64,000 bases of DNA from Bacteroidales bacterium (lineage in GTDB: Bacteria > Bacteroidota > Bacteroidia > Bacteroidales > F082). Of this stretch, positions 1,048 through 7,715 are shown piece after piece (positions within the stretch are counted from its first letter, which is position 1; every line of letters starts with the position of its first letter). The stretch spans positions 1 to 64,000 of the forward strand of contig JANJXG010000003.1 in assembly GCA_024709145.1 (NCBI GenBank), given 5' to 3'. The notes beneath the pieces are model-generated. The model did no database searches, had not been told where the DNA came from, and saw only the letters and a program-made list of their open reading frames with translations. Position numbers and translations under genes: made by a program.

Positions 1048-1101
1048 ATGAATGACATGAATTTTTTTCGAATGAGTAACATGATGATGATGCAGGAGTA
1101 A
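1048..1101 (+). CDS. Methionine leader peptide 1 (17 aa)
   Basis: ATG at 1048 opens a 17-codon frame with seven Met codons, four of them consecutive (1081-1092), ending Gln-Glu-stop at 1099-1101. The peptide reads MNDMNFFRMSNMMMMQE. It sits upstream of a methionine biosynthesis operon and overlaps the front of an antiterminator/terminator switch. It therefore has the architecture of a classical attenuator leader that senses charged tRNA-Met. If ribosomes stall in the Met run, bases 1104-1110 stay free. If they reach the stop codon, those bases are covered. Too short for homology support; the call rests on composition and position. Confidence 0.75.
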   Translation: MNDMNFFRMSNMMMMQE

Positions 1102-1103
1102 TC

Positions 1104-1174
1104 CTGACGGAGGCATTGTGTTTCATTTGTAAAGCATATCAGAACCCCCGTCAGATGATGACGGGGGTTTTTTT
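1104..1174 (+). promoter_or_regulatory. Attenuator 1: antiterminator strand plus intrinsic terminator
   Basis: Terminator: CCCCCGTCA (1145-1153), loop GATGA, TGACGGGGG (1159-1167), then seven T (1168-1174), a 9-bp perfect stem. Competing antiterminator: CTGACGG (1104-1110), immediately after the leader stop, is exactly complementary to CCGTCAG (1148-1154), the 5' arm of the terminator. A small protector hairpin, CAGG (1093-1096) with CCTG (1103-1106), overlaps the end of the leader. The mutually exclusive pairings fit ribosome-controlled attenuation. Confidence 0.8.
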
Positions 1175-2653: not shown

Positions 2654-3697
2654 ATGAATGAGAAAAACCTGCATTACCATACCATCAACCACTTTGTAAC
2701 CTGCGAAGGCTTTCATTACGAGCGCATTCGCCTATCGTATGAGCTCTTTGGCCCGCCCCTCAGCGACCGAAAAAATGTTGTGCTTGTCTGCCATGCCCTC
2801 ACTGGCAACTCCACGGTGGCAGGTGAAAGAGGCTGGTGGAACAAATTAATCGGCCATGGCAGACTGGTCTCACTAAACGAATACACAGTGGTAGGTATTA
2901 ACATCCCCGGCAATGGTTATGACATTGAAGACAATGATGGATTCGATCATTTTCAACACCTGACAGTAAGAGATATTGCCCGGCTTTTTGTCCAGACATT
3001 GAAGGCTATTGGCATCAGTCATTTGCATGTTTCAATCGGCGGGTCGCTGGGAGGTGCCATCAGTTGGGAGATTGCTCTCAGCTTCCCCGACTTTGTGCGT
3101 GTCATTGTACCCATAGCTACTGATTGGAAGTCAAGTGATTGGGTGCTGGCATTCAACAAAGTTCAGCAGCAGATTCTGCGCAATTCCAGTCAGCCGGTTC
3201 ATGATGCACGCATGATGGCCATGATGTTTTACCGTACACCGGAATCCTTCAGCCTTCGTTTCAACCGTTCGTGGAATCAGGAGCTTGGAATGGCCAATAT
3301 TGAATCGTGGCTCCTTCATCATGGCAAGAAGCTCGAAAACCGCTTTGGTCTTGATGCCTATCTGTTGATGAATCATTACCTGAGTTCCCACGACCTGAGC
3401 AGGGGCAGAGGTAGTTTTGACGAGGCCGTGAGGCAGCTCAGGGCAAGGGTGGTGATGATCGGGATTGATTCCGACTTGTTTTTTCAGCCGGCCTGCAACC
3501 GTGAGGCTGCATCAGTGCTGCAGCGAGCCGGTTTGGATGCAGTATACAGGGAAATCAGTTCCATCCATGGTCACGATGGTTTTTTAATTGAATATGAACA
3601 GCTAAACCGTCTTTTGGAAGATGTTTTTACTGAAACAGAAATGACAGTTTCGCCCCATGGACAGGCAGTAGTGAACGATTTATCACAACATGAATAA
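2654..3697 (+). CDS. metX: Homoserine O-acetyltransferase family (alpha/beta hydrolase fold)
   Basis: A 347-aa MetX-type acyltransferase that activates homoserine by acylation to supply MetY with its substrate. The catalytic triad is visible: nucleophile Ser131 in GGSLGG (usually GGSMGG), Asp274 in IDSDLFF, and His307 in GHDGFL. The oxyanion region CHALTGNS is near residue 50. The acyl donor (acetyl- or succinyl-CoA) cannot be told from motifs alone. The gene lies between metY and the aspartokinase-homoserine dehydrogenase gene, so the operon covers activation and sulfhydrylation in adjacent steps. Confidence 0.92.
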   Translation: MNEKNLHYHTINHFVTCEGFHYERIRLSYELFGPPLSDRKNVVLVCHALTGNSTVAGERGWWNKLIGHGRLVSLNEYTVVGINIPGNGYDIEDNDGFDHFQHLTVRDIARLFVQTLKAIGISHLHVSIGGSLGGAISWEIALSFPDFVRVIVPIATDWKSSDWVLAFNKVQQQILRNSSQPVHDARMMAMMFYRTPESFSLRFNRSWNQELGMANIESWLLHHGKKLENRFGLDAYLLMNHYLSSHDLSRGRGSFDEAVRQLRARVVMIGIDSDLFFQPACNREAASVLQRAGLDAVYREISSIHGHDGFLIEYEQLNRLLEDVFTETEMTVSPHGQAVVNDLSQHE

Positions 3698-3703
3698 AGG
3701 ATT

Positions 3704-6109
3704 ATGAAAGTTTTAAAATTCGGAGGAAAGTCACTGGCGAATGGTGAGCCCTTGGAACAAGCCCTGAGGATTATTTGCAGACAATCGACAAGGGGTAAAA
3801 TTTTTGTGGTATTATCGGCACGTGCCGATGCCACTGATTTGCTCGAACAAATGTTGGAGAAGGCTGCCGCCTCAGAGGACTACAATTCCTTGCTCACACA
3901 TTTCAGGGAGTATCAGCTTCAGCCATCGGCGGGGATTGATCTGGAAATCGAAATCAGCGATATCGTCCGGCTGCTTGCAGGTGTTGCCATGTTGGGCGAA
4001 TATTCACTGAAAATCAAAGACCAGCTACTGGCTTATGGTGAGATCATTAGTTGTAAGATGGTCACCCATTTACTAAAGGAGAAAGGTTATAAAGCCAGGT
4101 TTGTAGATGCGAGATCGCTGATAAAAACTGACCTGAAATTTGGATCGGCTCAGGTGATCTGGTCTCTTTCGGAAGATAATTTCAAGCATTTTTTCCGGGA
4201 CGCTGATCCTGAAGAAATTGAAGTTGTGACCGGCTTTATAGGCTCAGCCATTAACAACCAAACCACCACCCTTGGGCGCAATGGAAGTAATTACACAGCC
4301 ACTTTGGTAGCAGGATTTCTCGGGGCCGGGGAAGTTCAGAACTGGACCAATGTCAATGGTTTGTATACTGCCAATCCGAGACTTGTAGAAAGTGCCCGCA
4401 TTATCCGGCATCTTTCGTTCAGAGAGGCTAACGAGCTGGCGAATTTTGGCACACAGGTGCTTCATGCCAAAACGATACTGCCCCTGCTTGAAAGAAAAAT
4501 CCCCATCAGAATCCTGAATTCATTCAATCCCGATGATCCTGGAACCCTGATAGATGATCAGGGAGACGGACAAGGTATCAAGGCCATTTCGGCAATTGAG
4601 GATGTGGCACTTGTCAGCATCGAAGGCAGAGGTCTTCTGGGAAAGGTTGGAATCGACGGCCGTATTTTCAGCGCACTCAGCGCCGCCAATATCAGTGTCC
4701 GGATCATCGCGCAGGCCTCTTCTGAGCGGGGTATTGGATTTATCATCGACCGAGAGCATGCAGTGGCTGCGCGGAATTGTTTATCAGAAGAGTTTGCAAA
4801 AGAATTGGAGTTATTGGATATCAGTTCGATACAAGTTGATGAGGAAGTTGCTGTGATTTCGGTTATCAGCAGAAACCTGCAGTTTCTTGACCTGGCTTAT
4901 GGTTCATTGAACCGAAACAAAATCAAGCCGGTGTTGATGACCAATACCATCAACGGCGATCACATTTCACTGGTGGTGAAAGCCGGTGACCTGAAAAAAG
5001 CCGCCAATATCATTCACGGGCATATTTTTGGCGTGTCGCGACGGTTGAATGTTTTTCTTTTTGGAAAAGGAAACGTGGGAAAAACACTCCTGCAACAATT
5101 GGCCAGGTCGAAAAACAGAATTATTGAAAGAAGGGGCGTCGACATCAATATTTTTGGGATTTGCGATACAAAAAAGCTGGCACTCGACACCCGCGATCAT
5201 GGCGAAGAATGGCTTCACCAATTGAAAATGGGCAAGACAAGTCATTCCCGGGACCAGATCTTTCAATTTATCCGTGAAAACCATCTCGAAAATGTGGTAC
5301 TGGTTGACAACACCGCAAGTCGTGAGCTGGCTTTACACTACCCTGATTTTATCAGCGAAGGCTGCGACATCGTGGCCTCCAACAAACATGCCAACACCAT
5401 GGATATGAGTCATTATCACAAAATAAGGGAGTTGTTGAATTCGGAAGGGCGACAATTTTTTTATGAAACAAATGTTGGTGCAGGGCTGCCCCTGATCGAT
5501 ACCATCAAACTGCTTCATGCTTCGGGTGATACCATTTATCGGATCCGCGGTGTTTTTTCCGGCTCCTTGAGTTATATCTTTAATCGATACTCCAAAGAGA
5601 ATTTGCCATTTCACACCGTACTCGAAGAGGCGATGCACCTGGCTCTCACAGAACCCGATCCCCGAGAAGATTTATCCGGTCGTGATGTGGCGCGTAAATT
5701 GCTGATTCTTGCCCGTGAGTTGGATATGCAGGTAGAAATGGATGATATTGAGGTGGAAAGTCTCGTTCCTGAGCAGCTGGCATCCATTGTAAGCAAGGAG
5801 GATTTTTTGGCAAATTCAGCGGCTGTCAATGCGCATTTTCAGGCTGTCAGGGACACCTTAAAGCAGGATGAAGTATTGCGGTACACAGGAGAGCTGAATG
5901 TGGACAATCCCAGGCTGGAAGTTAAACTGCAGCGCGTAGCTGCCGGTTCAGTGCTGGGTACGTTGAGCGGGTCTGATTCCCTGTTCGAGATTTATACCGA
6001 AGCTTATGGTTCACACCCACTGGTTATCCGGGGGGCAGGTGCAGGCTCGGAAGTGACAGCCCGGGGCGTTTTTTCCGATTTGCTGCGTCTGGCTGCTTCA
6101 CTTGCCTGA
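3704..6109 (+). CDS. Bifunctional aspartokinase-homoserine dehydrogenase (methionine-operon copy)
   Basis: An 801-aa fusion with the ThrA/MetL layout: an aspartokinase domain (~1-290), ACT-type regulatory segments (~300-445), and a homoserine dehydrogenase domain (~450-801) whose Rossmann loop reads FLFGKGNVGKT and which includes SNKHANT and FSGSLSYIFN. It should supply homoserine to MetX. The kinase half departs from the canonical motifs: KFGGKS instead of KFGGT/SS (residues 5-10), GRNGSN instead of GRGGSD (Asn196), and WTNVNG instead of WTDVDG (Asn216, Asn218). The aspartokinase activity may therefore be altered or lost, while the dehydrogenase half looks intact. Third gene of the operon, 6 nt after metX. 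Confidence 0.88.
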   Translation: MKVLKFGGKSLANGEPLEQALRIICRQSTRGKIFVVLSARADATDLLEQMLEKAAASEDYNSLLTHFREYQLQPSAGIDLEIEISDIVRLLAGVAMLGEYSLKIKDQLLAYGEIISCKMVTHLLKEKGYKARFVDARSLIKTDLKFGSAQVIWSLSEDNFKHFFRDADPEEIEVVTGFIGSAINNQTTTLGRNGSNYTATLVAGFLGAGEVQNWTNVNGLYTANPRLVESARIIRHLSFREANELANFGTQVLHAKTILPLLERKIPIRILNSFNPDDPGTLIDDQGDGQGIKAISAIEDVALVSIEGRGLLGKVGIDGRIFSALSAANISVRIIAQASSERGIGFIIDREHAVAARNCLSEEFAKELELLDISSIQVDEEVAVISVISRNLQFLDLAYGSLNRNKIKPVLMTNTINGDHISLVVKAGDLKKAANIIHGHIFGVSRRLNVFLFGKGNVGKTLLQQLARSKNRIIERRGVDINIFGICDTKKLALDTRDHGEEWLHQLKMGKTSHSRDQIFQFIRENHLENVVLVDNTASRELALHYPDFISEGCDIVASNKHANTMDMSHYHKIRELLNSEGRQFFYETNVGAGLPLIDTIKLLHASGDTIYRIRGVFSGSLSYIFNRYSKENLPFHTVLEEAMHLALTEPDPREDLSGRDVARKLLILARELDMQVEMDDIEVESLVPEQLASIVSKEDFLANSAAVNAHFQAVRDTLKQDEVLRYTGELNVDNPRLEVKLQRVAAGSVLGTLSGSDSLFEIYTEAYGSHPLVIRGAGAGSEVTARGVFSDLLRLAASLA

Positions 6110-6216
6110 GCTTGTTTTGGAAATGGAGTTTGCTTCCCGCCCTTATGCACACATATGAAGCAACGAATGACAGAATTATTCGTTTATTTGGCTTAAAATG
6201 GAGATTAATAGTTAAT

Positions 6217-6252
6217 AAAAAAGCCTGCGTGATTAAAACGCAGGCTTTTTTT
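6217..6252. terminator. Bidirectional terminator between the met operon and dnaA
   Basis: AAGCCTGCGT (6221-6230), loop GATTAAA, ACGCAGGCTT (from 6238), flanked by an A-run on the left and a T-run on the right. It can therefore stop transcription from both convergent genes, whose stops lie at 6109 (plus) and 6279 (minus). Confidence 0.85.
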
Positions 6253-6278
6253 GATCCTGAATGGAGGATATGATTCCT

Positions 6279-7715
6279 TTACTGGATTATTTTTTTATCG
6301 ATTTCATGGGCATAAGCCCTAAATTGTTTATCCGTATCGATCAGGTTTGCAATGGTTTTGCAGGCGTGGAGTACTGTTGCGTGATCTTTGTTGCCGCATT
6401 GCAGGCCGATGGTAGCAAGTGAGGATTTGGTGTGTTTTTTGGAAAAATACATGGCCACCTGCCTCGCCTGCACAACTTCACGCTTACGCGTTTTGGCATG
6501 AATCTGATCCACCGGAAGTCCGAAGTAATCGCATACCACTTTTTGGATGTAGTCGATACTGATTTCCTTGGTGGTGTTTTTCACAAATTTATCGATCATC
6601 TGTCTGGCAAGTTCCATAGTGATCGACTTTTTATTGAGCGATGACTGGGCGATGAGCGAAATCAGGGCACCTTCCATTTCGCGAACGCTGGAGGTAATGG
6701 CATTTGCCAGGTATTCGATCACCTCTTCAGGAACAGTGATGCCGTCGCTGTACAATTTTCGTCTGAGAATGGCTACCCTGGTGTCGAGGTCGGGCATTTG
6801 CAAATCAGCTGAAAGTCCCCATTTAAATCGGGAAAGCAAGCGGGGTTCCATTCCTTTGAGTTCAACAGGCGGCTTGTCGCTGGTGATGACAAGCTGTTTG
6901 CCACTCTGATGTAAGTGATTGAAAACATGGAAGAAAATATCCTGCGTTTTGTCTTTTCCGGCTAAAAACTGAATGTCGTCGATAATCAGCACATCGATCA
7001 TCTGGTAAAAATGAACAAAATCATTTTGGTTGCCATTGCGGGCCGATTCGATGAATTGATTGATAAACTGTTCGGTTTGAACATACAAAACGGTTTTATC
7101 AGGGTAATTGATTTTAACCTGAAGGCCGATGGCGTGTGCCAGGTGAGTTTTACCGAGACCGGTGGGGCTGAAGATGAGCAAAGGATTGAAGGCGGTTTTG
7201 CCGGGATTTTCGGCTACTGCATAGCCGGCTGAGCGTGCAAGACGGTTGCATTCACCTTCGATGAAGTTGTCGAAAGAGTAACTCTCAACCAGTTGCGATT
7301 CAACTTTGATCTTCTTCAACCCAGGGATAATAAATGGATTGGGAATATCTTTTGAGGTGCCTCTGTTTAGGTCTAGGGGCATGCTGACATAAGGGTTTTT
7401 GCTGGCTTTCTGATTGCTGGTGGGATAATTAATGGCGAGTGGTCCGGTTGGTCCATTGTAGCTGTCCATAATAATACTGTATTCCAGTCTGCCTTCCGGG
7501 CCCAGTTCTTTCTTAATTGTCTTCCGCAAAAGCACGATATAATGCTCTTCCAGCCATTCGTAAAAAAACTGACTCGGCACCTGAATGGTCAGCACATTGT
7601 TGTCCAGTTTAACAGGCACAATGGGCTCAAACCAGGTTTTGTAACTTTGTGAATGGATATTATCCCTTATCACATTCAGACAGTTCTCCCAAACTTCAAC
7701 ATACTTCTTCTTCAT
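6279..7715 (-). CDS. dnaA: Chromosomal replication initiator DnaA
   Basis: A 478-aa AAA+ initiator that binds DnaA boxes at oriC and opens the duplex. Domain I lies at the N-terminus (residues ~1-80, including SYKTWFEPI). Domain III carries Walker A FSPTGLGKTHLAHA (Lys189) and Walker B VLIIDDIQF (Asp246-Asp247). Domain IV ends with the signature CGNKDHATVLHACKTI. Domain II (~85-140) is a short linker. Full length. It is transcribed towards the met operon; the 234 bp upstream are AT-rich. Confidence 0.97.
   Translation of the reverse strand: MKKKYVEVWENCLNVIRDNIHSQSYKTWFEPIVPVKLDNNVLTIQVPSQFFYEWLEEHYIVLLRKTIKKELGPEGRLEYSIIMDSYNGPTGPLAINYPTSNQKASKNPYVSMPLDLNRGTSKDIPNPFIIPGLKKIKVESQLVESYSFDNFIEGECNRLARSAGYAVAENPGKTAFNPLLIFSPTGLGKTHLAHAIGLQVKINYPDKTVLYVQTEQFINQFIESARNGNQNDFVHFYQMIDVLIIDDIQFLAGKDKTQDIFFHVFNHLHQSGKQLVITSDKPPVELKGMEPRLLSRFKWGLSADLQMPDLDTRVAILRRKLYSDGITVPEEVIEYLANAITSSVREMEGALISLIAQSSLNKKSITMELARQMIDKFVKNTTKEISIDYIQKVVCDYFGLPVDQIHAKTRKREVVQARQVAMYFSKKHTKSSLATIGLQCGNKDHATVLHACKTIANLIDTDKQFRAYAHEIDKKIIQ

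Follow-up and report, generated by a model that had tools for sequence, protein, structure and literature searches.

Two tandem Met-codon leaders upstream of metY in a Bacteroidales bacterium, a probable pair of ribosome-mediated attenuators

What is the role of two short reading frames, rich in Met codons and each followed by an intrinsic terminator, in front of a methionine operon of a Bacteroidales bacterium? Bacteria are known to regulate their methionine genes through SAM riboswitches, Met T-boxes, MetJ and MetR, and the leader-peptide attenuators of the trp, his, leu, thr and ilv operons belong to the Proteobacteria. The window analysed here is a stretch of 64,000 nucleotides, of which metY, a metX-like gene and thrA occupy the first 6.1 kb, 3' of both leader modules. 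Our reading, to which we assign a probability of about 0.86, is that the region contains two ribosome-mediated attenuators of the trp/his type in series, sensing the charging of Met-tRNA and probably served by one promoter. What computation shows is the anatomy, its conservation and covariation, the ribosome geometry, a promoter box that precedes the first module but not the second, and exchange with the SAM-I riboswitch. The genes of the operon are as follows.

1365–2642, + strand: metY, O-acetylhomoserine sulfhydrylase (TIGR01326, 638.8 bits, above the cut-off of 495.1)
2654–3697, + strand: metX-like gene (best match TIGR01392, 223.3 bits, below the cut-off of 500)
3704–6109, + strand: thrA, bifunctional aspartate kinase/homoserine dehydrogenase (NF006959, 775.9 bits, above the cut-off of 726)

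MetY and ThrA pass their NCBIfam cut-offs, and the metX-like protein remains below (223 bits versus 500). With metY assigned in this way, the Met codons of the leader match the amino acid that the operon makes, as had been proposed. The first module, which was the subject of the initial annotation, has the following parts.

1048–1101, + strand: leader ORF 1, MNDMNFFRMSNMMMMQE and stop, 17 codons with 7 Met, four consecutive Met codons at 1081–1092
1093–1106, + strand: regions 1:2, a pause-type hairpin CAGGA-GTAA-TCCTG directly 3' of the Met run
1104–1110, + strand: region 2, antiterminator 5' arm CTGACGG, pairing with 1148–1154
1141–1174, + strand: regions 3:4, intrinsic terminator 1, stem 1141–1171 with a loop of 5, T run to 1174
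1148–1154, + strand: region 3, CCGTCAG, the exact complement of CTGACGG, inside the 5' arm of terminator 1

The initial annotation had described a 17-codon frame with seven Met codons, four of them consecutive, ending at 1101, and an exact complementarity between CTGACGG directly behind it and the 5' arm of a terminator; coordinates and content of both were confirmed. It had also given the terminator 9 bp and seven T residues. Nine base pairs is correct for the core, CCCCCGTCA/TGACGGGGG, but the stem found by the terminator scan has 13 pairs, and some of the seven T residues (1168–1174) are themselves paired. A start of ORF 1 at 1057 is also possible, because 1048 lies only 8 nt 3' of the promoter-like box. 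Bacteroidota ribosomes make hardly any use of Shine-Dalgarno pairing. The 1:2 hairpin of this module has a folding energy of -6.6 kcal/mol, and none of 200 shuffles folded that low. The antiterminator complementarity exceeds that of shuffles (p = 0.005). If terminator 1 is deprived of its 3' arm, the module folds into the antiterminator (-17.9 kcal/mol); with the 3' arm present, the 1:2 hairpin and the terminator are obtained.

A second complete module (1190–1341), missed by the initial annotation, which was right about the first, follows directly behind it. The two tandem modules and the promoter-like box in front of them occupy 1032–1342, ahead of metY.

1032–1039, + strand: promoter -7-like box TTTCTTTG, 5 of 6 matches to the consensus TANNTTTG
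1190–1279, + strand: leader ORF 2, MKSGNIFSTSKAMMQATSMMMCMRMPWQE and stop, 8 Met and 1 Cys
1269–1276, + strand: region 2 of module 2, GGCAGGAG, pairing with CTTCTGCC at 1312–1319, with one G-U pair
1306–1340, + strand: intrinsic terminator 2, stem 1306–1336 plus T run

In both window modules the terminator 5' arm is complementary to the sequence just 3' of the Met run, and the antiterminator duplex of module 2 is likewise stronger than in shuffles (p = 0.010). The structure is larger than first noted, being tandem and widely kept, and a shortage of methionine at the ribosome probably activates the operon. Among the 27 loci that have two modules, the second ORF is the richer on average, with 7.5 Met and 2.7 Cys residues against 4.9 and 1.9 in the first.

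The consensus TANNTTTG is one that we take to be the Bacteroidota promoter -7 element. In 20 of 58 loci a perfect copy is found no more than 45 nt ahead of the first module, where 1.3 would be expected; the second module has one at this distance in 1 of 27 loci (0.5 expected). Since the box is enriched before the first module and not before the second, both modules likely share a single transcript from one promoter. Against this, a sigma-70 scan places two overlapping sites at 1267–1296, inside module 2 (1.3 expected). Further upstream, at about 969–1000, a GC hairpin with a long T run is visible by eye 3' of the preceding gene and was not returned by the terminator scan; it is probably the terminator of that gene.

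The modules were then sought in relatives. Among 100 genomes from the same GTDB family, 7, the window's own included, have MetY at E <=1e-150. Five of the six other family genomes (L007–L011) have two modules each; the sixth, L012, from the same GTDB genus with 54% MetY identity and with metY close behind a coding gene, has no 4-Met frame. Named loci are the best 80 of 587 metY loci, mostly from Flavobacteriaceae, and 50 of these best 80 have an ORF with at least 4 Met codons within 600 nt upstream of metY. One of them, L052, is an apparent duplicate of L009 and was left out of later counts. The scanned set therefore comprises 85 metY upstream regions: the window, the five family genomes and 79 named loci, with L012 not counted. 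A Met ORF (at least 3 Met) with a terminator occurs in 58 of these 85 regions, two modules being present in 27 loci, and this gives 85 modules in all. The loss of the Met-rich frame or of its complement in relatives that keep the terminator had been set beforehand as one observation that would refute the attenuator; in these 58 regions frame, complement and terminator are kept together.

Two broader samples were also taken. MetY was present at 1e-150 in 80 of 296 genomes across the phylum, from which 33 upstream stretches were chosen for family and genus spread, and in 8 of 247 genomes of the order, the window's own included, from which all 7 others were taken. One stretch, of 34 bases, was unreadable. 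Of the 39 readable ones, seven have leaders, as judged by reading (L102, L108, L109, L113, L114, L115 and L128), and 32 have none; 4-Met frames that a mechanical count gave for L116, L118 and L129 were taken as weak or due to chance. A genome search with a covariance model built on module 1 gave 18 matches in 13 of 296 genomes, all from one genus and close relatives only. A stricter run misses the window itself, so the model says little about spread. In the window's own genome, the first-type model scores E <0.09 at the window site only (150 of 2427 candidates scored). A plasmid search covered 28 records, and all five matches listed are annotated metY-type genes.

For the chance test, a Met-rich ORF was defined as one of 8–45 amino acids with at least 4 Met codons and a terminator. 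Such an ORF is present in 55 of the 85 metY upstream regions, 25 of which have two or more. None of the 85 reverse complements has one, and dinucleotide shuffling produced a single case in 425; for the remaining 600-nt tiles of the metY loci the count is 11 of 1640. Among these 11 control tiles, those of L027 and L068 are read as further leaders and that of L091 looks like chance; the other eight contain similar frames with Cys codons at the end, of which only L026 was read as sequence.

The switching arms were examined by the duplex energy between the stretch 3' of the last Met codon and the terminator 5' arm plus loop. Over the 85 modules the mean is -12.8 kcal/mol versus -7.3 in shuffles. 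The antiterminator is significant at p <=0.05 in 66 of the 85 modules and at p <=0.005 in 34; among the 19 with p >0.05, a late Met codon 3' of region 2 spoiled the cut in L028, L054 and L081. By motif, 98 modules were divided into 47 of a first type and 51 of a second type. In an arm swap among divergent modules, a module's own arm was better on average by 3.15 kcal/mol for the first type (32 representatives of 47) and by 4.35 kcal/mol for the second type (25 representatives of 51), values reached in 0 of 20000 permutations in either case; the own arm outranked every other arm in only 6 of the 32 and 7 of the 25 modules, respectively. Shuffled stretches had no own-arm advantage (-0.6 to +0.5).

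Alignments made from sequence alone, with 39 of the 47 first-type modules, have standard 2:3 pairs in 87–90% of cells. The pair types include A-T, G-C, C-G and G-U. As a control, sliding one arm by 1–3 columns reduced standard pairs to 29–60%; terminator pairs in the same alignments are standard in 96–98% of cells. By eye, the arm pairs include CTGACGG/CCGTCAG, GCAAAGG/CCTTTGC, GCAGAGG/CCTCTGC and GCAGCG/CGCTGC. A plain alignment with default gap costs was discarded: 18 of its 39 rows had at most 4 of 6 antiterminator pairs, partly through one-base shifts. The repeat used lower gap penalties and again sequence alone, with the pair columns taken from one row, L087. The near-copies L019, L063 and L078, both modules of L102, those of L108 and L109, and the extra L027 module were excluded. 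The duplex energies, the arm swap and the alignments satisfy our criterion for the switch, an antiterminator that shares the terminator 5' arm and is conserved by covariation.

These data bear on the simplest alternative, that the region contains plain terminators behind short frames that arose by chance. In its favour, the upstream gene does have a hairpin with a T run behind it at about 969–1000, as seen by eye. The shuffle, tile and reverse-complement controls, the covariation of the arms and the promoter-like box before the first module all speak against chance frames, and we give this explanation practically no credence.

For a ribosome-mediated switch, the position of the ribosome has to decide whether region 2 is available. 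We assumed that a ribosome reaches 12 nt beyond the first position of the codon in its A site. The median distance from the start of the last Met codon to that of region 2 is 16 nt. With the last Met codon in the A site, this geometry leaves region 2 entirely free in 67 of the 85 modules, and a ribosome at the stop codon covers half of region 2 or more in 84 of 85. A fold model was computed as a partition function for the transcript as it is ahead of region 4 synthesis. In it the arm is sequestered with a mean probability of 0.72 for a ribosome at a middle Met codon and 0.69 for one at the last; at the stop codon the value is 0.11, and without a ribosome it is 0.57. The difference between Met and stop exceeds 0.3 in 83 of 85 modules, versus 31% of shuffles. 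Geometry and fold model, and these only, suggest that a ribosome at the Met codons would free region 2 and one at the stop codon would cover it. With region 4 present at equilibrium, the terminator wins in every state (mean P_term 0.86–0.93), so the switch must act co-transcriptionally. The 1:2 hairpin reaches p <=0.05 in 12 and p <=0.1 in 23 of 33 first-type modules, and second-type modules were not scored. The ribosome logic of the trp and his operons, which the initial annotation had invoked, fits geometry and fold model, with only partial support for the 1:2 hairpin.

We propose that the ribosome would translate leader 1 while RNA polymerase is transcribing it. When charged elongator Met-tRNA is ample, the ribosome would reach the stop codon and cover region 2 (1104–1110), leaving region 3 free, and the 3:4 terminator would form. 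When charged Met-tRNA is short, the ribosome would wait in the Met run with region 2 open to pair with region 3. This 2:3 pairing would allow transcription to enter leader 2, where the choice would be repeated before metY-metX-thrA. Translation of the frames, ribosome stalling, Met-dependent termination and the serial logic are inferred, without data on expression, ribosome footprints or transcript ends. Judged on its sequence features, the locus works like an attenuator of the trp/his type, with the 1:2 hairpin only partly supported; its dependence on methionine is an inference. Because methionine is also the initiator residue, hard starvation should reduce initiation as well and may block entry into the leader.

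The codon content of the leaders is not restricted to methionine. Without the start Met, 20.7% of leader residues are Met and 11.6% are Cys, in ORFs that were chosen for Met. At least 2 Cys codons are present in 65 of the 85 modules, with a maximum of 7. The first reading had concerned methionine, which stands, and had passed over these Cys codons of many flavobacterial leaders, on account of which the signal there is probably the supply of sulfur amino acids. The position of the ribosome might then not be set by Met-tRNA alone, but by the nascent peptide, a lack of Cys, scarce initiator tRNA or a general slowing of translation. Such a reading would account for the Cys-containing modules and for the leaders found at cysteine genes, and it can draw on the initiator role of Met. 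However, the Met-rich leaders of the window, L007, L008 and L114 contain 0–1 Cys, and the peptides diverge between lineages except for Met and Cys. We regard stalling on these other grounds as unlikely and retain Met-tRNA charging as the signal at the window.

The leader is exchanged for a SAM-I riboswitch at the same gene, a swap that went unnoticed when the attenuator was first recognized. Within 600 nt upstream of metY, the 80 named loci contain a leader only in 50 cases, SAM-I only in 22, both in 0 and neither in 8 (Fisher p = 2e-13, uncorrected for kinship). The eight with neither include 3-Met leaders (L030, L035 and L045), a locus that is cut short (L073), one with SAM-II (L076), two with a coding gene directly upstream (L072 and L092) and one with nothing (L075). 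In the further 39 readable stretches, SAM-I is present in 26, two of them with a leader, and 8 have neither. Those two, L108 and L109, have a Met/Cys leader with a terminator and then SAM-I in one 5' region before metY, which rules out absolute exclusion. On a MetY tree of 86 rows, with the three 3-Met loci labelled as leader, the leader label changes 6 times and the SAM-I label 7 times; supported branches force at least 4 changes of each. The MetY proteins of L009–L011, from the window's GTDB family, nest with that of a Lutibacter. This placement, which rests on the protein tree, suggests horizontal transfer of metY between lineages, and the leader probably moved with it. The window's own genome has SAM-I before an open-ended MetH-like ORF; an earlier assignment of that ORF to metK was dropped.

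Exchange with SAM-I would also fit an undescribed riboswitch, in which the RNA between Met run and terminator binds methionine, SAM, homocysteine or a similar ligand and the frames are incidental. Some bases 3' of region 2 are moreover kept in many first-type modules (CTATTG..ATAA). However, no Rfam match to the leader above the gathering threshold was obtained in the window, the 80 named loci, L001, L007–L012 or the 39 further stretches. The spacers are short, AT-rich and variable, and it is mainly the switching arms and the Met codons that recur between lineages. ATG occurs 431 times in-frame versus 23 times off-frame in the 85 ORFs, in part by construction, as in-frame Met was selected. We consider a ligand-binding RNA very unlikely. 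The Rfam scans list SAM-I, SAM-II, Flavo-1 (two loci) and one tRNA; the SAM-I and SAM-II matches stand where a leader would otherwise be, accompany one in series (L108 and L109) or belong to other genes, and there is no match to either aptamer in the window, L001 or L007–L012. RNA sensing of uncharged tRNA-Met in the manner of a T-box would have the identical signal and the identical terminator/antiterminator output, but no T-box was matched at the Rfam gathering threshold in the window or the loci scanned, and the antiterminator here is a plain short helix. We attach almost no weight to it, and the ribosome-mediated attenuator remains the preferred reading.

With the attenuators of Proteobacteria, the locus shares a run of regulatory codons, the 1:2, 2:3 and 3:4 hairpins, a terminator before biosynthetic genes and the geometry. 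It differs in the codon, Met, which is also the initiator, often joined by Cys, in its occurrence in Bacteroidota, and in that 27 of 58 loci have one complete attenuator followed by another. It also differs from super-attenuation: in the fold model without a ribosome, 67 of 85 modules are closer to the stalled state. Module 1 of the window is not among them, its ribosome-free value of 0.16 being like that at the stop codon (0.17; stalled, 0.69).

The polycysteine leaders of mycobacteria are said, in work of 2020 associated with the name Canestrari, to be Cys-codon attenuators. These share with our leaders the codons of a sulfur amino acid in the leader ORF; the amino acid is Cys and not Met, and the phyla are others. 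Bacteroid-trp RNA, within Bacteroidota, is presumably a leader peptide element too. It has been presented as a cis-regulatory RNA candidate of Bacteroidetes (RF01692; PMC2864571) and, unlike the metY leader, concerns trp genes, to judge from the portion of that source available. SAM-I (RF00162) shares the position before metY in sister lineages; it senses SAM by an aptamer, which is absent from the window leader.

The uORFC-8-2 leader at cysS of Rhodobacterales has traits of ribosome-mediated attenuation with transcriptional read-through and uses Cys codons, according to the accessible part of PMC8632094. For Actinobacteria, the sections available of PMC1262725 report neither conserved terminator hairpins at cys leader peptides nor conserved RNA structure at met operons. 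The nearest Met case is the metL leader peptide proposed upstream of metNIQ in Streptomyces lividans; as far as the available text goes, it has two Met codons besides the start, lacks a typical Rho-independent terminator, and is known from one species at a transporter gene (PMC8079986). For Flavobacterium psychrophilum (Flavobacteriaceae), a study of 2021 reports, in general terms, strong indications that leader peptides attenuate amino-acid operons, together with some conserved structured 5' elements without an Rfam match; pheA, hisG and others are named among such elements and not Met, and the section concerned gives no Met leader mechanism (PMC9723704). Small ORFs reminiscent of attenuation are mentioned for Bacteroides thetaiotaomicron in the part available of PMC7366714, and what is available of PMC2965389 does not show a Met leader. 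No described Met attenuator with a terminator was found in the literature searched, which leaves out most subscription journals. The earlier statement that such a switch is not known as described holds for the searchable literature, with the caveat of the general F. psychrophilum claim, whose supplementary table was not read (PMC9723704).

A leader-peptide attenuator for methionine would add to the list of attenuated amino acids the one that starts proteins, and it would imply coupling of transcription and translation at such operons in Bacteroidota. That leader and SAM-I have replaced each other repeatedly at one orthologous gene offers a natural experiment on whether a cell reads charged tRNA or SAM as its signal for methionine supply. 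In a wider reading, which we hold only tentatively and at somewhat less than even odds, Bacteroidota have a sulfur-amino-acid attenuation regulon, in which Met/Cys leaders, often tandem, replace SAM-I at metY in many lineages, stand in series with it in few and also control cysteine synthesis genes. On this reading, because Met is also the initiator, most modules, module 1 of the window excepted, would allow read-through when no ribosome is on the leader, just as when one is stalled there, and the tandem arrangement would give a graded or two-threshold response.

Leaders before sulfur genes other than metY had not been noticed at first, the one at metY having been correctly placed. In one genus a similar Met/Cys leader precedes part of a Cys/Met PLP enzyme gene that is possibly broken (L137, 1471–1539). 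A leader at 1471–1539 is also found before serine acetyltransferase and cysteine synthase genes, in L142 by the family search and in L143 by likeness, and one near 1470 before a TonB receptor gene, in L146 by the family search and in L147 and L149 by likeness.

Two further features were seen by eye. A small ORF ending in a sequence like SLLF.MY.KENETLFI occurs in L068 (2698–2889, where the ending is EEEDLFI), L027 (6435–6644) and L026 (6256–6459); it lies in the gap between leader and metY in L068, and between the leader and a SAM-I/metX-like gene in L026 and L027. L027 also contains, at 5622–6314, a second Met/Cys leader pair before an apparent C-terminal metY fragment, followed by SAM-I and another metX-like gene, which we read as a decayed duplicate cluster.
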